DNA of 35,670 bases, from the NCBI GenBank assembly GCA_003225335.1, contig QHZE01000247.1, positions 1-35,670 on the forward strand, given 5' to 3'. The translations under genes and the position numbers were made by a program. Shown here piece after piece: positions 3,396 through 35,627 of this stretch (position 1 is the stretch's first letter; every line of letters starts with the position of its first letter). Below the pieces are notes generated by a model. The model did not search any database. It saw only the letters and a list, made by a program, of their open reading frames with translations, and had not been told where the DNA came from. Source of the DNA: Acidobacteriota bacterium. Lineage in GTDB: Bacteria > Acidobacteriota > UBA6911.

Positions 3396-3644
3396 TTCGA
3401 ATTGACAATTGACGATTGGCGATTGACGATGGAACGGCCCTGGCAGGGGTCTCCAAAGGAATTATGCATGGCCGTGCCACGTGGCATGGCCGTCCCGGCC
3501 ATGATGAGGCTTTTGGTCAACTTTACACCCACCGGAAGAACCTGCCGAGCAAGCCTCTTAGCGCCAACTCCGCCACGGGTGAGACGCCCGTGCCGCATGC
3601 ATGGCCACAGACCCTAATGGTCAGTTGTTTAAGGGTCCTTGTCA

Positions 3645-4281: not shown

Positions 4282-5088
4282 ATGGGATCCGGAAACCTGG
4301 CAGTCGTAACGGGAGCGTCCTCCGGCATTGGATGGGAGATGTCAAAGCAGCTTGCCGCCCGCGGCTACGACCTCCTTCTTGTAGCCCGGCGCGAGGACAG
4401 GCTCCGCGCGCTCGCCTCGGAAGTTTCACACCAAACGGGCCGAAACACCGACGTCCTGGGCGCCGATCTGACGCAGCCGTCGGAGAGGAGGAAGCTGGTT
4501 TCGGCGCTCGAGTCCCGCAAGGAGGCTCTGCAGCTCCTGGTCAACAGTGCGGGGGTCGGCATGGTCGGACCGACCGTGGCGCCACCGCTGGAGCGCATCA
4601 TGAAGCTGATCGAGCTCAACATCACGGCAGTGACAGAGCTCTCGTATGAAACGGCGAAGATCATGATACCCAGGCGGGCGGGCGGTTTGATTAACGTAGC
4701 GTCCACGGCGTCCTTCCAGGCTGTTCCGTATATGAACGTTTATTCGGCCGCCAAGGCCTACGTGCTGAGCTTTACCGAAGCCCTGGGGGAAGAACTACGC
4801 GAGTACGGGATCCGGGTCATGGCGCTTTGTCCCGGGTATACGAAAACGGAATTTCAGGCGGTTGCGGGAGTGAAATATGACGACACCAGATTTCGCTCTG
4901 TCATGAGCGCCGCCGCATGCGCGCGCGCCGGGCTGGACGACTTTGACAAGGGAAAGAGAATCAGTGTCACCGGACTCGGCAACAAGCTGCTTGTCCTCAG
5001 CAGCTGGATAGCGCCCCGGAGCATCACTCTCAAAATCGGCTCCAGATTGATGAAGAACCGCGCCGGTCAGCCACTGAATGACGAGTGA
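4282..5088 (+). CDS. Short-chain dehydrogenase/reductase (SDR family)
   Basis: LAVVTGASSGIGWEMSKQLAARGYDLLLVARRE, LVNSAGVGMVG, YSAAKAYVLSFTEAL; aggagg RBS before ATG. Confidence 0.93.
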   Translation: MGSGNLAVVTGASSGIGWEMSKQLAARGYDLLLVARREDRLRALASEVSHQTGRNTDVLGADLTQPSERRKLVSALESRKEALQLLVNSAGVGMVGPTVAPPLERIMKLIELNITAVTELSYETAKIMIPRRAGGLINVASTASFQAVPYMNVYSAAKAYVLSFTEALGEELREYGIRVMALCPGYTKTEFQAVAGVKYDDTRFRSVMSAAACARAGLDDFDKGKRISVTGLGNKLLVLSSWIAPRSITLKIGSRLMKNRAGQPLNDE

Positions 5089-5142: not shown

Positions 5143-5445
5143 CTAGGTCCACTTGGTGGTCGCCAAGTTCACAAACTGGTCAAATTTCGTCCGGGAGGCA
5201 TGGTTGATTGATAAAAGAAAAGAGAGAGAAATGGAACAAGCGCAGTTGTTTTGAAACCGCCGATGAACGCGGATGCACGCCGATGTTCGGTGCCGCACAT
5301 CGGCGTGAATCGGCGGTTCCCCTCGTACCTCCCAGTCACTCACGGGCGAGACGCCCGTGCCACGATGGCTTCGTGGCATGGCCGTCCCGGCCATGATACA
5401 AAACTTGACCGATTTGTGAACTTTGTGTCCACCAAGTGGACCTAG
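5143..5445. mobile_element. MITE-like CTAG-ended inverted-repeat element, copy 1 (composite, 303 bp)
   Basis: ctaggtccacttggtggtcgccaagttcacaaactggtcaaattt ... aaaacttgaccgatttgtgaactttgtgtccaccaagtggacctag, with nested GCCGATGAAC arms and three inner hairpins. Confidence 0.77.
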
Positions 5446-5455
5446 TCAATCGGGA

Positions 5456-6490
5456 TCAGGGCTTCCAGTCGGCGATGAAGACGTTGGTTTCGCCGGGCCG
5501 CTTTCCGTGGCGATTGGAGGAGAAAACCAGCCTCGATCCGTCTCGAGAAAACATGGGGAACCCATCGAAGGTTTCGTTGAAGGTCACCCGCTCCAATCCC
5601 GTGCCGTCCAGATTGATCAGATAAAGATCGAAATTCCGCCCGCGGGGATCATGCATGTTGGACGCAAAGATGATCCTCTTGCCGTCGGGATGAAAATAAG
5701 GAGCGAAGTTCGCCTTTCCGTTGCTCGTCACCTGCCGCTTGTTGGAGCCGTCCGCATCCATCACCATGATCTCCAGCGCGCGCGGCTCGATCAGGCCCTG
5801 GGCCAGAAGTTTCTCATAACGTTCCACGTCACCGGGCTCCGTGGGGTGGTGAGCCCGGTAGACGATTTTCTTGCTGTCGGGGGAATAGTAAGCGCCCCCG
5901 TCGTACCCCTTTTCATGCGTAAGCCTCCGGACGTCGCTGCCGTCCAGGTTCATGGAATACAGCTCCAGGTCCCCGTCGCGCACCGAAGTAAATACGATGC
6001 GCTTGCCGTCGGGCGAAACGGTGGCCTCGGCGTCGTAGCCGGGCGTTCGCGTCAGCGGCTTCACGTCGAGGCCGTCAGCTCGCGCCGTGTAGATGTCATA
6101 GTCCTTGTAAAGAGCCCACACATACCCCTGGCTCATGTCGGGCCTTGCGGGACACAGCGGACTTCCTTCGTGGGTGGAAGCGTAGAGAATACGCGTGTCT
6201 CCGGGAAGAAAATACCCGCAGGTCGTCCTTCCCTTGCCCGTGCTCACCATGCGAAGGCCTGTGCCGTCGAGATTCATCGTGAAGATCCGGTCACACTCGT
6301 AGGGAGAACGGGTCGATTGAAAGATGAGCTTCTTTTGATCGAAGGAAAAGTACGCTTCTGCGTTCTCTCCTCCCGAGGTCAGTTGCTGAAGGTTCGCAAG
6401 GTGTTTCTCCCCCGGAAGCGGCGCGATCGTGTTGTTTTCAAAACCTGCTAACACGAGAACCGCAAGAATTCCGACAACAAAAAACTTCAT
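5456..6490 (-). CDS. Exported TolB-like/PD40 beta-propeller protein
   Basis: MKFFVVGILAVLVLAGF signal; repeated VSPDGKRIVFTSVRDGDLELYSMNLDGSDVRRLT units. The track ORF start (6610) lies inside repeat DNA; ATG at 6490 is more plausible. Confidence 0.87.
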   Translation of the reverse strand: MKFFVVGILAVLVLAGFENNTIAPLPGEKHLANLQQLTSGGENAEAYFSFDQKKLIFQSTRSPYECDRIFTMNLDGTGLRMVSTGKGRTTCGYFLPGDTRILYASTHEGSPLCPARPDMSQGYVWALYKDYDIYTARADGLDVKPLTRTPGYDAEATVSPDGKRIVFTSVRDGDLELYSMNLDGSDVRRLTHEKGYDGGAYYSPDSKKIVYRAHHPTEPGDVERYEKLLAQGLIEPRALEIMVMDADGSNKRQVTSNGKANFAPYFHPDGKRIIFASNMHDPRGRNFDLYLINLDGTGLERVTFNETFDGFPMFSRDGSRLVFSSNRHGKRPGETNVFIADWKP

Positions 6491-6502
6491 AGGGCCTCCC
6501 GC

Positions 6503-6586
6503 AACGAAAACCTTCGCGTTTCTTAGCGTCTTCGCGTCTTGGTGGTAAAGGCTGTGCCCAATCCACCACGAAGACACAAAGACGCG
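6503..6586. repeat. CACGAAGACGCGAAG-family inverted pair
   Basis: ttcgcgtttcttagcgtcttcgcgtcttggtggt ... ccaccacgaagacacaaagacgcg. Confidence 0.82.
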
Positions 6587-6702
6587 GGACAACGAACTGC
6601 GATTTGTCATTTTTCATTGGTCATTGGTCATTTGTCATTTTATTTTTCTGCGGGCTCTGCGTCTCTGCGATGAGATCCGTTTCGGTTGCGGCTGGGCTGA
6701 TC

Positions 6703-6905
6703 CGTACTACTAAGGCGAAAATCCTTTGCGATCCGGCAAGGATTTTTGTGCGTACTCCTGGGAGCGCACCCATCCTGTCTTCAGCACAAAGACACGAAGA
6801 ACACAAAGATCCACCACGTCCTTGCCCGTGTGAATCTTCGTGGCTTCGTGTCTTTGTGGTGAGATTTTTTTGGATTGCGGCTGGGCTGCTCCGTCTACTC
6901 CGTGG
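6703..6905. repeat. Hairpin repeat followed by CACGAAG-family inverted pair
   Basis: cgtactactaaggcgaaaatcctttgcgatccggcaaggattttt; cacaaagacacgaagaacacaaagat ... atcttcgtggcttcgtgtctttgtggtgag. Confidence 0.77.
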
Positions 6906-12297: not shown

Positions 12298-12493
12298 CTT
12301 CACCACCCTATTCTTTCTCTGCGTCTTCGCGTCTTGGCGGTAAGGACTGCGCCGGATTCACCACGAAGTTGTCATGTCCTGCGGCTCGCCACCGCGAATG
12401 AAAAGTACGCCCAGATCCTAGCGAGCAACCTCCGGGTCATTCGCGGGTCAGACGGGTCTTCGTGGCATGGCCGTCTCGGCCATGACCAGGTTA

Positions 12494-12685
12494 GGGCCCG
12501 TCAGAAAATAAGGTGTGCATTTTGGCGCGAGCGCCGGGCGGGCAGATGCAAGGCGCCGCGACGCAGGCGATGTGGTGACATCGTCGAGGAGCGGCAACGC
12601 CGCAGATGCCCGCCCGCCGCCGCGCCCCTCCGGGCTGCGGCCCGCAGCCAGCAGCAAAATGTACACCTTATTTCCTGACGGGCCC
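12494..12685. mobile_element. MITE-like 192 bp terminal-inverted-repeat element
   Basis: Left gggcccgtcagaaaataaggtgtgcatttt and right aaaatgtacaccttatttcctgacgggccc are inverse complements with 2 mismatches in 30 nt; flanked by TTA on both sides; no coding capacity. Confidence 0.65.
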
Positions 12686-12775
12686 TTAATGCCCACTTCC
12701 CACGGTTTGGCACGGGTGGGACGCCCGTGCCACGAAAGTCCATTTTCAGGAGAGACACGAAGACGCGAAGAATAA

Positions 12776-14035: not shown

Positions 14036-15598
14036 TCAGGAATTCTTGAAGCGGGCCTCGACAAAGCGGATAGTGCCTATCGCAAAGCTGCGGTAGGCCT
14101 GTAACTCGATCTTGCTGGCACCCATACCGAGATAGCTCACCACGTACACCAACACGCCCAGACCTGCTATCACCAGGACAAGGGGCAAGGACGACGGGTC
14201 GATTACGTTCCGAAGGACATAGAGCACGATCACCATGGGAACCGCTGGCAGCAGTACCGGTGAAAGGATCTGCTTGAAGACCTCAGAGATGCGGGCTCCA
14301 ATGACCCGCATGGCATACGGCAGGACGAGCCCAAGGCATTCGGCAGCCGTCGGGATCAGGGTGCCGAGGGCGACGCCGGTGAGCCCGAACCGGTGCACGA
14401 GGGCGATTGACAGGACGAGGTTTGCCAATCCCGAGCCGAGCGACATTGCTGCCACTGGCCGATGCCGTGCCATGCTCTGAAGGATCGAGGCAGCGGGCCA
14501 CATGCTCGTGTTGATGAGACTGGCGAGAGTCAGGATGATAACGAGATGGGCATAGTCCGCATATGCCGTGCCGACCCAGAGGCTGAGAATTGGCCGAGTC
14601 AAAACGGCGAGTATGCAGCCAACCGGGATGAAGATGGCGAGCGTCAAGCGGCTGCTGGTGAAGTAGAGTGAGCGCAGACGGCCCCGATCACCTTCGGCAT
14701 GGAGCTCTGACGCGAGCGGCAGGAGTACCTTCACGAGTTGATCGGTCAGAAGCTGAGCCAATTCGCTCAGCCGCCTGGCAATGGCATAGGGCGCGACCGC
14801 GCTGATCGGCAGAGATGCCGCAATCACAAACTCGTCAGTCTTTGTCTGCAGGCAACCCGAGACTTCCGTCACGAAGAGCGGCGAACTGAACGAGATGACT
14901 GTCCGCACCAGCCGGCGCCTCGCGCCTCGCCACCCGAAATGCAGCTCCGGCATGATGCTGTGGATGGACCCAATAGCCCATGCTTGCATTGCGAGCGTAA
15001 CGGCGATACTGACTCCCACCAGGCCAAGTACGCCTCCGCCAAGCAGCAAGACGACGACCGTCGCCGCAGCGGAGAGGATCGTACCGGCGGTATTGATGAG
15101 GTTGATGGTGTCGTAGCGCTGCAAACCCCGCAGGACGGCCGGGGCCGTCGTGCACGGGATCGCTATCCCAATCCTCAAACCCACCAATAGCGCCAACCAA
15201 ATGGCCGTGATACGCTCGCCGGGCAGCAGATTGAAGAGGGCCGGGACGAGCGGCGCGAAAGCCGCGCTCACGACGATGACGATCAGACCGAGGGCAGAAT
15301 AAAGGCACAGCGCAGTCGCGACGAGGCTCCGCGCCTGCTCGGTCTCCCCTCTGGCCCGGTGCTCGGCGACATACTTGATAACGGCGCCCGCGATGCCAAG
15401 GTCGAGGAGTGAGCCGTACATTACCACCGAGCCCACGATCATCCATAGACCAAACCCCGAGGCCCCAAGCTGGCGCAGGATGAACGGCGTGAGGAAGAAC
15501 CCGATGCCAAGCGTGATGAACGCGCCGAAGTAGTTACTGACAACATTGCGCAGGGCGCGCTGCCAGATCAACGCGTCCTTGGCTGCGTCAATAGCCAT
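14036..15598 (-). CDS. Polysaccharide flippase (Wzx/MATE-like)
   Basis: About 12-14 hydrophobic helices; NVVSNYFGAFITLGIGFFLTPFILRQLGASGFGLWMIVGS typical Wzx N-terminus; start MAIDAAKDALIW. Confidence 0.87.
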   Translation of the reverse strand: MAIDAAKDALIWQRALRNVVSNYFGAFITLGIGFFLTPFILRQLGASGFGLWMIVGSVVMYGSLLDLGIAGAVIKYVAEHRARGETEQARSLVATALCLYSALGLIVIVVSAAFAPLVPALFNLLPGERITAIWLALLVGLRIGIAIPCTTAPAVLRGLQRYDTINLINTAGTILSAAATVVVLLLGGGVLGLVGVSIAVTLAMQAWAIGSIHSIMPELHFGWRGARRRLVRTVISFSSPLFVTEVSGCLQTKTDEFVIAASLPISAVAPYAIARRLSELAQLLTDQLVKVLLPLASELHAEGDRGRLRSLYFTSSRLTLAIFIPVGCILAVLTRPILSLWVGTAYADYAHLVIILTLASLINTSMWPAASILQSMARHRPVAAMSLGSGLANLVLSIALVHRFGLTGVALGTLIPTAAECLGLVLPYAMRVIGARISEVFKQILSPVLLPAVPMVIVLYVLRNVIDPSSLPLVLVIAGLGVLVYVVSYLGMGASKIELQAYRSFAIGTIRFVEARFKNS

Positions 15599-16515
15599 TC
15601 GAAGGCTCCAGAGACAAGCGCAAAAACATAGACGGCATCGCCGCACGCCCGATGGGGCTCACGCCACACCCGGCGAGGGAACAGAAGGACGTGACGTATG
15701 ATGTCCGAAATCATGCGCCGCAGCATATAGGGGTCTCTCACGCTCAGGTACTTGGCGTAATACGCGCCCTGACCGCGGCCGTAGCTCCAGCCTATTGAGA
15801 CATGGTCTTGTTTAGTCCGCCAGGCACGATGGTAGAGCACTGCCTCCGGCGCGTAGATGATACGAGATCCGGCCTCGAGAAGGCGGAATCCAAAGTCGTT
15901 GTCTTCGGACGAAGGGAAACGCGATCCTACGCCGAGGCGTTCGTCGAAGGCGCCAATGCCGGCGATGACGGTGCGGTACATCGCCATATTGCCGGCCCAG
16001 AGCACATCTTTGCCGACGCGACCCTCGTAGACTTCGCGGACCTCTTCGATTTTGGTTGATGGCGCGAAGGCTCCAGGCGTTTCCGGTGCGGTCGGCAGGA
16101 CCCGGCCTGTCACGATACTGCGCCGCCCTGCGTCGACGAGAGCCCGGATGAGGGAGCCAAACCAGGTGGCCGGCACCACCATGTCGTCATCGGTGAAGGC
16201 AAGAATGTCATGCCGAGCTGCGGCAATGCCGGCGTTTCTGGCTCTGCCTAACCCGACGGACTGCGTCCATAAGTAGCGAATCTCACAGGCGCGATCGGTT
16301 TTCAGGGCTGTCAGGCTCGGATGTTCGACATCACTCTGGTCGATGATGCACAGTTCGGTTGGAAGCTCCGCGCCCTGAAGGATGGACTGGACGCACTCGA
16401 ACAAGAGTTTCGGCCTATTCCGCGAACAGATGACGAGGGAGGTCGCGGGAAGATTTCCCGGCGTGGATGACGCCCCCTGGTGTCCTGGCGCAGATTCCTG
16501 CGTGTTAAATACCAT
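15568..16515 (-). CDS. Family 2 glycosyltransferase
   Basis: TSLVICSRNRPKLLFECVQSIL, LAFTDDDMVVP, GFDERLGVGSRFPSSEDNDFGFRLLEAG; ATG at 16515 with aaggaag RBS; the track start at 16569 lies in repeat DNA. Confidence 0.91.
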   Translation of the reverse strand: MVFNTQESAPGHQGASSTPGNLPATSLVICSRNRPKLLFECVQSILQGAELPTELCIIDQSDVEHPSLTALKTDRACEIRYLWTQSVGLGRARNAGIAAARHDILAFTDDDMVVPATWFGSLIRALVDAGRRSIVTGRVLPTAPETPGAFAPSTKIEEVREVYEGRVGKDVLWAGNMAMYRTVIAGIGAFDERLGVGSRFPSSEDNDFGFRLLEAGSRIIYAPEAVLYHRAWRTKQDHVSIGWSYGRGQGAYYAKYLSVRDPYMLRRMISDIIRHVLLFPRRVWREPHRACGDAVYVFALVSGAFEWLLTQPRTR

Positions 16516-16562
16516 CGCTTCCTTATTTCGCCCCGCTGGGGCGGATCGCCGAGTCTTCGGTT

Positions 16563-16618
16563 TAGCCACAGAGACAAGACTATCTCTGTGCCTCCGTGGC
16601 TCCGTGGCTAATCTTTAG
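16563..16618. repeat. CACAGAGA-family inverted pair between two paralogous GT genes
   Basis: tagccacagagacaagactatctctgtgcctccgtggctccgtggctaatctt. Confidence 0.82.
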
Positions 16619-17521
16619 CTGTGTCCATGCCCAACGAGTTGTCCCGGAGAGAATTCCAGCAATATATACAAGGTCGCCGCAAGCCCTCCGGGGATCCAGC
16701 CATACCAGGCATGGAAAGCGAAAGACACGATGCAGAATATCCCAGGCCATGCGGCGCAGCATGTAGCGGTCCTTGTAGCTGAGGTACTTGCTATAGTACC
16801 CGCCTTTGCCGCGGCCATAACTCCAGCGCGCCGCCATATACTCCCCTTTGCCGCGCCAGGCACGATGATAGAGCACGGCTTCCGGAGCGTAGATGATGCG
16901 ATACCCAGCCTCGAGCAGGCGGAAACCAAGGTCGTTGTCATCGGCGGCGGGAAAATCCGCCCCTGCCCCGAGGCGTTCGTCGAAACCGCCGACGGCGTCG
17001 AGGATGGATCGATACGCAGCCATGTGTCCCCCTGCCAGCACATCAGTGCCGATGCGACCTTCGTAGACCGCCCGAACCTCGCTGGGCATAAATGTCGGCA
17101 CAAAGCCGCCGGGCACTTCCGGTGCGGTTGGCAGCACCCTACCGGTCACGACGGCGCGCTCTCCAGAGTTGAGAAGCGCTCGGATGAGCGAGCCGAACCA
17201 GGCGGGCTCCACGAACATGTCATCGTCTATGATGGCGAGAATGGCGTGCCGCGCCGCGCCGATACCAGTATTCCTGGCCCGGCTCAGCCCGGCCGAGTGC
17301 GTCCACAGGTAGCGAATTTCGCAGGAGCGGCCGCTTTTCAAGCTCGCCAGGGCCGGATGCGGGACACCACTCTGGTCGATGATGATGAGCTCGGTTGGAA
17401 CCTCATCTCCCCGGAGCACCGACTCGATGGTCTCGGCCAGGAGTTTCGGCCTGTCACGCGAGCAGATGATCAGCGATGCCGGCGGGAGGCTCGCCTCCGT
17501 AAGAGAATTGATGTCGGTCAT
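16580..17521 (-). CDS. Family 2 glycosyltransferase (close paralog of the 15568..16515 gene)
   Basis: ASLIICSRDRPKLLAETIESVL, LAIIDDDMFVEPAWFGSLIRAL, DNDLGFRLLEAGYRIIYAPEAVLYHRAWRG; last residues encoded by intergenic repeat. Confidence 0.92.
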   Translation of the reverse strand: MTDINSLTEASLPPASLIICSRDRPKLLAETIESVLRGDEVPTELIIIDQSGVPHPALASLKSGRSCEIRYLWTHSAGLSRARNTGIGAARHAILAIIDDDMFVEPAWFGSLIRALLNSGERAVVTGRVLPTAPEVPGGFVPTFMPSEVRAVYEGRIGTDVLAGGHMAAYRSILDAVGGFDERLGAGADFPAADDNDLGFRLLEAGYRIIYAPEAVLYHRAWRGKGEYMAARWSYGRGKGGYYSKYLSYKDRYMLRRMAWDILHRVFRFPCLVWLDPRRACGDLVYIAGILSGTTRWAWTQLKISHGATEAQR

Positions 17522-17525
17522 TGGT

Positions 17526-18257
17526 CTATCGCTTGATTGCACGAACCCCGAGGATGACCGGGAAGTTCTCGTCATTCGCATCGAGCTCCCGGCGTGACAG
17601 CTCCTCGTACGCCATGCCGGTCAGGAATGCGATGGCCGTCAGCACATTGCCGTACGACCGGACAGTGATGCGCTCTGCGCCAAACACTTCCCCAAAGAGC
17701 GACGAGCACGAGGTGGCTGTGAACCGCCAGTAATCGAGGCTCGGCTTGTCCTCAGGAGACATTCGGCCCGCCGCGGGGACAGTGACCAAAAGAACTCCAT
17801 GCGGGCGAAGAACACGATGGGCATGAACGATGGCGGCACGCACGTTGTAGATGAACTGAAGCGTCTGGGTCAGCACGAAGCAATCAAATTGGTCCGCCGC
17901 GATCCCATCTGCCGCGGCCAAATCACCGACGATCGTCGCGCGCCGGTTTGCAGCGTCGATGTCGAGCACATCACGCCGGTCGACGTCCGCGCCGAATCGA
18001 TCAGTGTAGACGCTATCTTTGATTTCGAGCGCACGGCCGCGGATGTCCCGCCGGTGCTCCTCGAGGAAGCGTTCGATGTAATAGCGATCAACCGGCGTGC
18101 CGCGGTCATAGCCATGACGTTCGCTCAAGGGCGTGGTTCGGCGGATCGTCCCGAGCCATGCCGGACGCACGAGACGGCGGAGGCGTTTCCGCTGGTCGGG
18201 GCGAATCCTTTCCAGAATTTTCTCCAAGAGGGGCGATCGCATCAAAATTGAAACCAC
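17526..18257 (-). CDS. SAM-dependent methyltransferase (class I) in glycan cluster
   Basis: ALEIKDSVYTDRFG...DVLDIDAAN...FDCFVLTQTLQFIYNVRAAIVHAHRVLRPHGVLLVTVPA. Confidence 0.8.
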   Translation of the reverse strand: MVSILMRSPLLEKILERIRPDQRKRLRRLVRPAWLGTIRRTTPLSERHGYDRGTPVDRYYIERFLEEHRRDIRGRALEIKDSVYTDRFGADVDRRDVLDIDAANRRATIVGDLAAADGIAADQFDCFVLTQTLQFIYNVRAAIVHAHRVLRPHGVLLVTVPAAGRMSPEDKPSLDYWRFTATSCSSLFGEVFGAERITVRSYGNVLTAIAFLTGMAYEELSRRELDANDENFPVILGVRAIKR

Positions 18258-18264
18258 CGATGAA

Positions 18265-18345
18265 ACAGATCAGACCTCAGACCTCAGGGATCAGACCTCA
18301 GACCTGGAGCCGGAAGTCTGAGGTCTGAAGTCTGAGGTCTGACCT
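18265..18345. repeat. CAGACCT heptamer palindrome
   Basis: cagacctcagacctcagggatcagacctcagacctggagccggaagtctgaggtctgaagtctgaggtctgacctg. Confidence 0.87.
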
Positions 18346-18361
18346 GTTCATACCTTTGCCG

Positions 18362-21087: not shown

Positions 21088-21132
21088 GTACTACTAACCC
21101 GAAAATCCTTTGCTGGCAGGAAAGGATTCTTC
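21088..21132. repeat. TACTACT-AAAATCCTTT...AAAGGATT hairpin repeat (copy 3)
   Basis: tgtactactaacccgaaaatcctttgctggcaggaaaggattctt; related to 6703-6753, 11379-11423 and, more loosely, 509-552. Confidence 0.68.
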
Positions 21133-21205
21133 TTCGCGAAGAAAACGCGAAGGGCTTTAGTTTGGTTGCGGCTTTACTGCTCTGTGTAATTACCGTTCGT
21201 ATAGG

Positions 21206-23748: not shown

Positions 23749-23968
23749 CTAGGCCCTCTTGGTGGACACAAAGTTCACAAAATGGTCAAATTTTTGCGTC
23801 ATCGCGGGCGCAGGTTCGGAGTTCAGCCTTCAGGCTGCACTGGCGCCGGGCAGGCTAAAGCCTGAACTCCAAACGGGCCGTGCCACGATGGCTTCGTGGC
23901 ATGGCCGTCCCGGCCATGATACAAAACTTGACCGATTTGTGAACCTTGCGTCCAGCAAGTGGACCTAG
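23749..23968. mobile_element. MITE-like CTAG-ended inverted-repeat element, copy 2
   Basis: ctaggccctcttggtggacacaaagttcacaaaatggtcaaattt ... aaaacttgaccgatttgtgaaccttgcgtccagcaagtggacctag. Confidence 0.75.
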
Positions 23969-28890: not shown

Positions 28891-29007
28891 GTTAGGTTTT
28901 CTTGGTGGACACAAAGTTCACAATTCGGTCAAGTTTTGTATCATGGCCGGGACGGCCGTGCCACGAAACCATCGTGGCACGGGCGTCTCGCCCGTGACTC
29001 ACTTGGC
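28891..29007. mobile_element. CTAG-family element, half copy 3 (left arm plus inner hairpins only)
   Basis: gttaggttttcttggtggacacaaagttcacaattcggtcaagttttgtatcatggccgggacggccgtgccacgaaaccatcgtggcacgggcgtctcgcccgtgac; no right terminal arm found. Confidence 0.65.
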
Positions 29008-29210
29008 GGTATGAGGCTGCTCGCCATAGATTGGCGATTTGCCGCAGAGGCCCAAAAGGGCGACAGTGACCAGGACACCGCGGAGTGTGCGACTGGATTG
29101 TCGAGAAGATGACTGAGCGCCGAAGGTGCGGCAGACGCGGATTGTCGGTCCTTCGCGCCTCAGATTACGGGTCCTGGCGGCCCCGGCCCTCACGGCCCTG
29201 ACGGGCGGGG

Positions 29211-32840: not shown

Positions 32841-35627
32841 ATGCAAGCATGGATTGGACAGGCTCGATTTCTACAATTACTCAGGCTCCTCGTACTGCTT
32901 TATCTGGCTGGAAACACTCGCGCTTTCGCTGTCGATGTCACTTTGTCCTGGGACCCGAACAGCGAGCCCGCCGTTGCCGGATACAACCTTTATTACGGCA
33001 CGGCGGCGCGGACCTACAGCGAAACAATCGTGGTTGGCGACAAGACGAGTTACACCGTGACCGGACTCGGAGGAGGAACGTACTTTTTTGCCGTTACCGC
33101 GTACGACATCTTGGGAAACGAAAGCAGCTATTCCAACGAGGTCTCACAGACGGCGTCTCCTGCCGGTTGCACATACTCGATTTCTCCCCTCAGCCAGTCC
33201 TTTGCGAGCGCCGGGGGAACAGGGAGCGCGGCCGTATCGTCATCAACCGGCTGCAGCTGGCCGGCGGCAAGCAACGCCGGCTGGATCACGATCACTTCGG
33301 GCGGCAGTGGAGGGGGCAACGGCACGGTGACGTACACCGTTGAGACCAACAGCTCAACCAGCTCCCGAACGGGGACCATGACTATTGCGGGCCGGACCTT
33401 CACGGTGACCCAAGCCGGCTCAGTCCCGCCCACGACGTCATCCTTCGACCTGCGCGTCACGAGCGCCTCGGTCGGGAGTGTGTCGCTCGCATGGAACAAG
33501 GCGACCGACCCGGCTGCCGTAAACTACAACTTGTACCGGGGCACCGCGTCCGGGAACTACGAGACCTACGCCGATCTGAACGTTGCCACCACGAGCTACA
33601 CGTTCACGGGGCTCACGCCCGGCGTTACCTACTACTTCGCGATTAGCTACGACACCTGGACCGCCGGGGAAAGCGACTATTCCGACGAGGTGTCGCAAAC
33701 GGTGCCTGCCGTGGTCTCGCAGACGATGTCTGCCGAGGTCTCGCAAACGGCGCCTGCCGCCTGCCTATACTCGATTTCTTCCCTCGGCCGTTCCTATGGG
33801 AGCGCCGGTGGAACTGGGAGAGCGACCGTAGCCTCATCAACCGGCTGCGGCTGGGGGGCAGCAAGCGATGCCAGTTGGATGACGATCACCGCGGGCGGCA
33901 GTGAGAGGGGAAACGGCACGGTGGCGTACACCGTGGAGGCCAACAAATCAGCCAGCTCCCGAACGGCCGCACTGACCATTGCGGGGCAGAGCTTCCGGGT
34001 GACCCAGGCAAGCTCACAGTCGGAGATCTGCACTTACAACATTTCGCCGGCCAGTCACTCCTTCCCTAATACCGGCGGCTCAGGCACCCTCTCCATATCG
34101 TGCCGGAGTGGTTACGCATGGACCGTCTCAGGCGCTCCAGAGTGGATAAACATAAACTCCGCCGGCAGCGGCACGGGCGATGGCGCCGTGACGTTCTCGC
34201 TTGAGCGTAACAGCGGCAAACACCGCCGGCGGGGGGAACTGACCGTCGCAGGGCAGACTCTCGTTGTCGAGCAGGCAGGGAGAAACAAGACCGCATTCCC
34301 CCAGGTGGCCAACGGCGCGCAATGGGTTTCTTCCATCGTCCTGACCAATCCGTCGGCGACGGAAACCGTGACCGGTTCCATGAACTTGCTGAATGATGGC
34401 GGCCAACCGCTGCTTGTCTCTCTTAACAATCAACCGCCTGCCGAAACGGTCTCTTTCGCGATATCGCCTTTGGGCGGCGCGACATTCACTACCGACGGAG
34501 CCGGGGACCTCGTGTCCGGATCGGCGCAAGTCAGCTCCGATAACCCCGTATCAGGGGTCGTCAAATACTCCCACCCGGCCTTCGGAATGGCGGGTGTTGG
34601 AGAAAGCCATCCGCTTCGAAGTCTTATGACGCCCGTGCTGTGCGATAGAAACCGGGGGCTGAATACCGCGGTGGCGCTGCACAATACATCGGACAGCCCG
34701 GTCGAGATGAGACTGTCGCTGCGCGGCCTCGACGGTCGCGAGGTAGCCCGAGGATCAAGCTCCGCGGTGCTTCCCGCAGGCGGCCATGTCGCCAAATTCA
34801 TTGACGAGCTATTTCCGGGCGTCGATGCCTCCAGCTTTCAGGGCACCCTGGTTGTCAGGTCATCCGGGCTGGAACAAAGTGTGACCGCGACCACGATTCA
34901 GACCGGAGGCTCCGTTGGAGAATTCACCACCCTCCCTGTGATACCTCTCGATCCCGCACCGGCACCGAGGGAGTTGTTCTTCGCTCAACTTGCCGCCGGC
35001 GCGGACTGGACTTCGGTTCTGTTCCTGACCAACCCCAAGGGCACGGCCAGCAACAATCAACTCGCTTTTTATGACGATGAGGGCCGCCCCTTGCCAATAT
35101 CGGTTAACGCCCATCCGGCCGCCCCCGGCGTCTCGTCAAACATCCAGCCTCAGGGCGCGGTTACTCTTTCCGCTGGCGGAAACGGGAGCCTCGTGTCGGG
35201 TTCCGCCAGGGTACATGCCAGCGGCGCCGTGGGAGGCGTATTGAGTTTGACTTCTCCCGGCTTGGGCGTGGCGGGAGTCGGCGCGAGCATCCCAAGCGAC
35301 GGCTTTATCGCGCCTGTGACACGAAGCGCAACAGAAAGTTCGAGCACGGGAGTCGCGATTGCCTCTACGGGTTTACCCGTGAAGGTGACTTTGACGCTGA
35401 GGGACGAAAAGGGAAAGCCAGTTTCAGGCGGAGGCGCCACGTTGGAATTGTCGGCAAATGGACACCTGGCCCGTTACCTCGAACAGCTATTCCCGGATGC
35501 GGACACGCGCGAATTCCGTGGGGCCGTTACCGCGACCGCGGAGGGGGGCAGCATTGTGGGAGCTGTGCTTGAGTTTCACAGCAAGGCGCGCCAGATTACA
35601 GCGCTCCCTGTGATACCGCTGCAGTGA
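32841..35627 (+). CDS. Large secreted FN3/BACON multidomain protein with duplicated C-terminal module
   Basis: ATG at 32841 with gggaagg upstream; signal LRLLVLLYLAGNTRAFA; two FN3-like units, three BACON-like units (ISPLSQSFASAGGTGSAAVSSSTGCSW...), and two ~220 aa C-terminal repeats each ending LPVIPL. Confidence 0.87.
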   Translation: MQAWIGQARFLQLLRLLVLLYLAGNTRAFAVDVTLSWDPNSEPAVAGYNLYYGTAARTYSETIVVGDKTSYTVTGLGGGTYFFAVTAYDILGNESSYSNEVSQTASPAGCTYSISPLSQSFASAGGTGSAAVSSSTGCSWPAASNAGWITITSGGSGGGNGTVTYTVETNSSTSSRTGTMTIAGRTFTVTQAGSVPPTTSSFDLRVTSASVGSVSLAWNKATDPAAVNYNLYRGTASGNYETYADLNVATTSYTFTGLTPGVTYYFAISYDTWTAGESDYSDEVSQTVPAVVSQTMSAEVSQTAPAACLYSISSLGRSYGSAGGTGRATVASSTGCGWGAASDASWMTITAGGSERGNGTVAYTVEANKSASSRTAALTIAGQSFRVTQASSQSEICTYNISPASHSFPNTGGSGTLSISCRSGYAWTVSGAPEWININSAGSGTGDGAVTFSLERNSGKHRRRGELTVAGQTLVVEQAGRNKTAFPQVANGAQWVSSIVLTNPSATETVTGSMNLLNDGGQPLLVSLNNQPPAETVSFAISPLGGATFTTDGAGDLVSGSAQVSSDNPVSGVVKYSHPAFGMAGVGESHPLRSLMTPVLCDRNRGLNTAVALHNTSDSPVEMRLSLRGLDGREVARGSSSAVLPAGGHVAKFIDELFPGVDASSFQGTLVVRSSGLEQSVTATTIQTGGSVGEFTTLPVIPLDPAPAPRELFFAQLAAGADWTSVLFLTNPKGTASNNQLAFYDDEGRPLPISVNAHPAAPGVSSNIQPQGAVTLSAGGNGSLVSGSARVHASGAVGGVLSLTSPGLGVAGVGASIPSDGFIAPVTRSATESSSTGVAIASTGLPVKVTLTLRDEKGKPVSGGGATLELSANGHLARYLEQLFPDADTREFRGAVTATAEGGSIVGAVLEFHSKARQITALPVIPLQ
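33687..33758 (+). repeat. 3 x 24-nt in-frame tandem repeat (VSQT linker)
   Basis: gaggtgtcgcaaacggtgcctgcc / gtggtctcgcagacgatgtctgcc / gaggtctcgcaaacggcgcctgcc. Confidence 0.9.

Follow-up and report, generated by a model that had tools for sequence, protein, structure and literature searches.

A composite element between convergent genes

Copy 1 of the element, at positions 5143–5445 of the window (the whole 35,670-nt stretch of DNA analysed here), fills the space between two genes that converge on it, those for a short-chain dehydrogenase (4282–5088, +) and a TolB-like β-propeller protein (5456–6610, −), the stops of which lie at 5088 and 5456–5458. Its ends (5143–5159 and 5429–5445) are exact 17-nt inverted complements, as a previous sequence-only reading had stated, and the similarity that this reading saw continuing inwards extends the arms to 49 nt at 86%. 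The second inverted pair (~5259–5316) and the three hairpins (5341–5359, 5360–5376 and 5377–5395) that it described are also present, and its term 'composite' is borne out, in that two units with different passengers are joined.

Unit 1 (+) carries a type A passenger and unit 2 (−) a type B passenger; they are placed tail to tail, with the central tails mostly deleted. Unit 1 starts with CTAG and an arm (variant TCCACTTGGTGGTCGCCAAGTTCACAAACTGGTCAAATTTCGT; 5143–5190, +), followed by its passenger (5191–5320, +; compared with other type A copies), which holds the inverted pair (5259–5285 and 5298–5316). At 5321–5339 (−) lies what is left of the unit 2 right tail, CCTCGTACCTCCCAGTCAC (compare CCTCATACCGCCCAGTCAC). 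Comparison with the intact tail-to-tail pairs L002, L003 and L007 reveals that the CTCGCTAT-NN-ATAGCGAG centre, retained in intact pairs such as L002, is lost from copy 1. The type B passenger consists of three adjoining hairpins, CACGGGCGAGACGCCCGTG, CCACGATGGCTTCGTGG and CATGGCCGTCCCGGCCATG (5341–5395, −), and the left end of unit 2, arm plus CTAG in minus-strand reading, completes the element (5398–5445, −). The inverted ends of copy 1 thus reflect the tail-to-tail arrangement of two directional units, each contributing its left end. Folded as single-stranded DNA, the 303 nt of copy 1 reach −85.7 kcal/mol compared with −45.7 kcal/mol for shuffles (z −11). No match was found in Rfam.

All three other copies previously proposed in the window, at 23749, at about 28892 and near 3480, exist, but the one at 28892 has a single arm and is therefore not a second composite. 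It is one complete type B unit (28892–29027, +), running from a TTAG left flank to CTCGCCAT and then AG-ATTG, and it obeys the right-flank rule described below. The copy near 3480 is a type B fragment (3466–3540, −), degenerate and with its arm decayed. Composite copy 2 (23749–23968) is composed of a type C unit (+) and a type B unit (−), with their tails deleted. Its host repeat, CTGCACCATTGC, carries a single B unit at several other loci; in the window, a C unit adjoins the B unit in reverse. This reversed C unit beside a resident B unit is a direct picture of composite formation.

A directional unit with two unlike ends

The host genome is a 7.5-Mb draft of 795 contigs, and some copies lie at contig ends; counts from the genome sample refer to ~1.1 Mb of contiguous DNA, not to the whole assembly. 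The relatives of its proteins give no more than a loose indication of uncultured, Acidobacteriota-like lineages. Searching the genome with a 27-nt arm (≤3 mismatches) yields 91 copies, compared with none for the pattern read backwards, and BLAST yields 102 matches to the element. The dispersed family suggested by the copies in the window is thus clearly present genome-wide, and the description of a non-coding, CTAG-bounded mobile family of gene-free units is supported. Only 13 of 63 arms lie inside long open reading frames, although such frames cover 85% of the sample, so that the copies are mostly intergenic. CTAG itself is strongly avoided in the sample: it occurs 428 times, whereas a Markov model predicts ~1025 occurrences and base composition 4044.

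The unit is a directional half-element, and the sequence-only reading of a MITE with terminal inverted repeats is not supported: most of the 100 copies read with their flanks have one arm only, and the right end is different and equally sharp. Each unit starts with CTAG|GTCCACTTGGTGGACACAAAGTTCACAAATCGGTCAAG, continues with an exchangeable palindromic passenger and ends in GGCGGTATGAGGCTCACTCGCTA. The left end comprises CTAG, a short hairpin (GTCCAC-TTG-GTGGAC) and a conserved arm of 46 nt. Across 121 aligned left ends, information content per position is ~0.0–0.15 bit before CTAG and ~1–1.9 bits inside; the tetranucleotide is exactly CTAG in 68 of the 121 and GTAG in 5. The right end, GGCGGTATGAGGCTCACTCGCTA(T), has 69 matches (≤3 mismatches) and is as sharp as the left.

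Of the 84 right ends that we read, 57 are those of single units, 19 are placed tail to tail and 8 head to tail. Head-to-tail tandems have one CTA(G) in common, and tail-to-tail pairs are separated by a 2-nt spacer. At the right junction, ...CTCGCTA is followed by N (mostly T), NN and then NTWG, a CTA-NNN-NTAG rule. T..G at the fixed right offset is found in 37 of the 57 singles, compared with 5.9% of random windows (p ~4e-32), and CTAG at this offset in 8 of 57 versus 0 of 814. CTAG delimits only the left side of the unit, and no precise CTAG...CTAG target duplication was found. Young copies that are nearly identical combine a left-hand CTAG with ATTG, CTTG or CTAG on the other side, which makes plain target duplication unlikely. 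We found no target-site duplication of fixed length, left and right flanks being no more identical than in shuffles, and the spacer NNN does not copy the left flank by the same measure. A 6-bp duplication (NNCTAG) fits a few copies (L033 and L093) and was rejected overall. The right end has no stable hairpin, its folding being no better than that of shuffles, and the left hairpin shows no excess of covariation over shuffles within this genome. Traits of the REP type are present, namely intergenic location, high copy number and inverted dimers.

The passengers define discrete end-to-end lengths: 136 nt for B, 187 for A′, 205 for A, 171 or 201 for C and ~209–217 for D. Within a composite, the passengers of the halves usually differ. 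The core of the C passenger is an independent repeat, with 104 occurrences in the 1.1-Mb sample, 25 of them near an element end, and the long form of C includes the B hairpins. The constant part is therefore the ends, whereas the contents undergo exchange.

A second genome, empty sites and candidate movers

Searching the DNA of relatives with composite L058 as the query revealed a second carrier, G018, of the same class and another family, so a family confined to one genome is ruled out. It holds 108 arms, in units of the form CTAG-GGCCACTAGGTGGCCAACAAGTTCACAC...CTCGGCGGTATGAGGCTGCTCGCTA that are 98 nt long almost without exception, a stripped form of the family. Those examined are only single or in tandem (spaced 95 nt), and all complete units examined have unlike ends. 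The left consensus sequences of the two genomes agree at 36 of 46 positions, and the right flank is again CTA-NNN-NTAG. The left hairpin GTCCAC/GTGGAC becomes GGCCAC/GTGGCC in G018, a compensatory change of a single stem pair (T-A to G-C) that lends support to this hairpin. No copy with the G018 spelling was found in the sister species G028, the exact arm spelling of the first genome has no match in 84,980 genomes or in viral contigs, and plasmid and phage records gave no match. We also considered the CTAG of stop codons as a special target and rejected it: the frequency in the host genome (6 of 45) equals the 13% background of all CTAGs, and that in G018 is 10 of 29.

Uninterrupted copies of host repeats exist for L033 (compared with L174 and L165) and for L134 and L136 (compared with the TTAGTAGTAC repeat), and this sequence comparison supports insertion of the element. 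The precise empty junctions anticipated by the sequence-only reading were obtained in approximate form only: there are two within-genome empty sites, but each leaves 2–3 nt unexplained, L134, L136 and L033 having extra nucleotides (AAG, CG) at the right junction relative to the repeat consensus. A pre-existing TTAGAAGTAGTAC target for L134 and L136 was discarded, as it occurs 0 times in the genome. At orthologous sites in the sister species of G018, the flanks are too diverged for a clean junction. In copy L354 of G018, we read the right-hand ATAG as part of a Tyr codon of a conserved gene; it would therefore have been there before insertion.

An autonomous transposase with matching ends was sought but not found; no copy found encodes one, and of the 91 arms genome-wide none surrounds a transposase in the spans examined. 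Long arm-to-arm spans with open reading frames were dismissed as autonomous copies, their translations being ordinary host genes. The host genome encodes two Y1 proteins, RAYT-like (L062) and IS200-like (L061); C191:4444 and C674:8702 are the candidate Y1 proteins. The RAYT-like gene (L062, 1171–1881) is flanked by GGGGACAGGCTACTCAAYTCCCGA inverted and direct repeats (GGGGACAGGCTAC repeats), and these flanks fit the published subclass of TIR-flanked RAYTs, or TIRYTs (PMC6006769). The IS200-like gene (L061, 1489–1944) encodes a solitary 151-aa Y1 transposase, just under the NCBIfam cut-off, with hairpins AGCCCTGAAAGGGC and CCCAGGGC in its flanks. Both were rejected as movers, since their own flanking repeats differ from the element ends. 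An apparently intact ISNCY-family insertion sequence (L228 on G000:C364, 137–2240) encodes a 473-aa transposase (NCBIfam E 5e-126) and has a TIR, CTAGTTTCTGTCGCAAAAC, within CTAG flanks. It too was excluded, as its TIR (CTAGTTTCTGTCGC) is unrelated to the element ends. It probably mobilizes a different MITE family, of ~283 nt (TIR CTAGTTTCTGGCGCGAAAC, 91 arm matches, IS200-like hairpin core), the TIRs of which are closely similar to its own.

Mode of movement and relation to known systems

We give an even chance to the interpretation that 5143–5445 consists of two copies of a non-autonomous directional cassette moved in trans by an HUH-type enzyme; mobilization of an IS200- or REP-like kind is our best guess. 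A trans-acting enzyme, with an IS200/IS605-REP type of single-strand HUH nuclease as the likeliest candidate, would recognize the hairpin and CTAG, excise the unit and re-insert it 3′ of a CTAG. Both the right end of the element itself (CTAT/CTAG) and the adjacent NTAG would offer new targets, giving rise to tandems, and the palindromic CTAG on the other strand could serve as a target to produce tail-to-tail pairs such as copy 1. Exchange of passengers may proceed by capturing other hairpin repeats of intergenic regions or by recombining with them. Against an HUH enzyme stand the lack of a transposase linked to any copy examined, the different flanks of the Y1 genes, the right end without a stable hairpin and a hairpin covariation within the genome that does not surpass that of shuffles. 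The 2–3 nt left over at the empty sites also fit poorly with simple insertion 3′ of CTAG.

A classical DDE MITE, in which the composite with its ~48-bp inverted arms would be the transposing form, CTAG a 4-bp target duplication and the one-armed copies broken derivatives, strikes us as rather unlikely. Composites are indeed flanked by CTAG on both sides, CTAG is over-represented at the fixed right offset, and the ISNCY-family element of the same genome has TIRs starting with CTAG inside CTAG flanks. However, that TIR sequence is unrelated, singles outnumber composites and have a precise end (...CTCGCTA), composite halves usually differ in passenger, young near-identical copies pair a left CTAG with ATTG or CTTG on the right, and the G018 units examined are only single or tandem 98-nt units. 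Site-specific recombination, in which a tyrosine or serine recombinase would integrate a circular cassette at a palindromic CTA...TAG core and leave a 2–3-nt coupling sequence (NNN), would account for the asymmetric ends, the lack of target duplication, the core-sharing tandems, the exchangeable contents and the 2–3 extra nucleotides of L134, L136 and L033. We nonetheless regard it as unlikely: near-identical copies have not inherited a common NNN, which is no closer to the left flank than shuffles are, tail-to-tail junctions always measure 2 nt and never ≥4, and no recombinase was found adjoining the copies.

It is very improbable that a host function, as a bidirectional terminator or in mRNA end protection, rather than transposition, keeps and spreads these repeats. 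Copy 1 does fill a gap between convergent genes and its hairpins are very stable, but the element in its own spelling is absent from 198 of the 199 genomes searched, uninterrupted target repeats exist and a U tract is lacking; any such function would be secondary and compatible with mobility. We see a modest chance, well short of even, that the element belongs to a separate class of cassette transposition, transposase-less, with two unlike ends conserved across species, unduplicated CTAG and CTA-NNN-NTAG junctions, repeats captured as passengers and an enzyme of no known family.

By its anatomy (a tetranucleotide plus hairpin, no TIR or target duplication, and inverted dimers), the cassette appears closest to REP/IS200 single-strand transposition (PMC8266576, PMC3733652). 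Like REP/BIME (REPIN) sequences with their TnpA-REP (RAYT), it is intergenic and of high copy number, has a tetranucleotide beside a hairpin, occurs singly or in inverted pairs with the tags outside (HH dimers) and has no TIR or target duplication at the unit level. However, the REP tag is GT[AG]G instead of CTAG, REP units measure 20–50 nt compared with 98–217 nt and a second conserved end here, and RAYT genes are flanked by the same repeat, whereas the RAYT of the host genome (L062) is flanked by others. In Stenotrophomonas maltophilia, a CTAG tag mutant is reported to lower cleavage by the enzyme (PMC8266576). With non-autonomous IS200/IS605 (PATE-like) elements, the cassette shares sharp asymmetric ends without TIR or target duplication, a left tetranucleotide, a probable left hairpin and freedom of passenger; it differs in having no stable right-end hairpin and a fixed NTAG beyond the right end, and no Y1 gene with the element's ends was found. 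The tag, size, second end and missing enzyme lead us to keep it outside the REP/IS200 families. The ~283-nt DDE MITEs with their ISNCY-type parent are likewise small, non-coding, dispersed and bounded by CTAG, but they possess genuine TIRs and a transposase-bearing element that matches them closely; the cassette has neither. Acidobacterial class 3 TnpA-Y1 systems are associated with atypical secondary structures in high copy number, ~600 in Solibacter usitatus (PMC6006769). The cassette resembles them in this respect; the foot reported at those Y1 genes is CnGA, and our comparison covers tag and flanks only.

Two genomes of different families thus carry >90 and >100 near-uniform copies with a common junction grammar, and the mover can therefore be searched for by comparing carrier with non-carrier genomes. 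Directional units can build up long composite palindromes of a sort often classified as MITEs, and the family illustrates how one family of repeats comes to be the passenger of another.

The window contains further repeats. A dispersed repeat, AAAATCCTTTGC...GGATTTTCGSSTTAGTAGTAC, is located at 6704–6752 and 21088–21136, and the 1.1-Mb sample has 34 of them; its terminal TTAG serves the element as a target. A 47-nt inverted repeat (83%), AGGGCCCGTCAGAAAATAAGGTGTGCATTTTGGCGCGAGCGCCGGGC, lies at 12493–12686; an identical sequence abuts copy L027, and next to L024 there is a similar one. Repeats of 14 nt and of the TCAGACCTCAGACCTGA type, both direct and inverted, form arrays at 28–120, 381–442, 565–602 and 18256–18348. 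Two adjoining 333-aa open reading frames (15568–17581), with DNA 73–76% identical over long stretches, represent a tandem gene duplication, and a 269-nt direct repeat (80%) at 33154–34016 falls within a 969-aa open reading frame with BACON and fibronectin type III domains.
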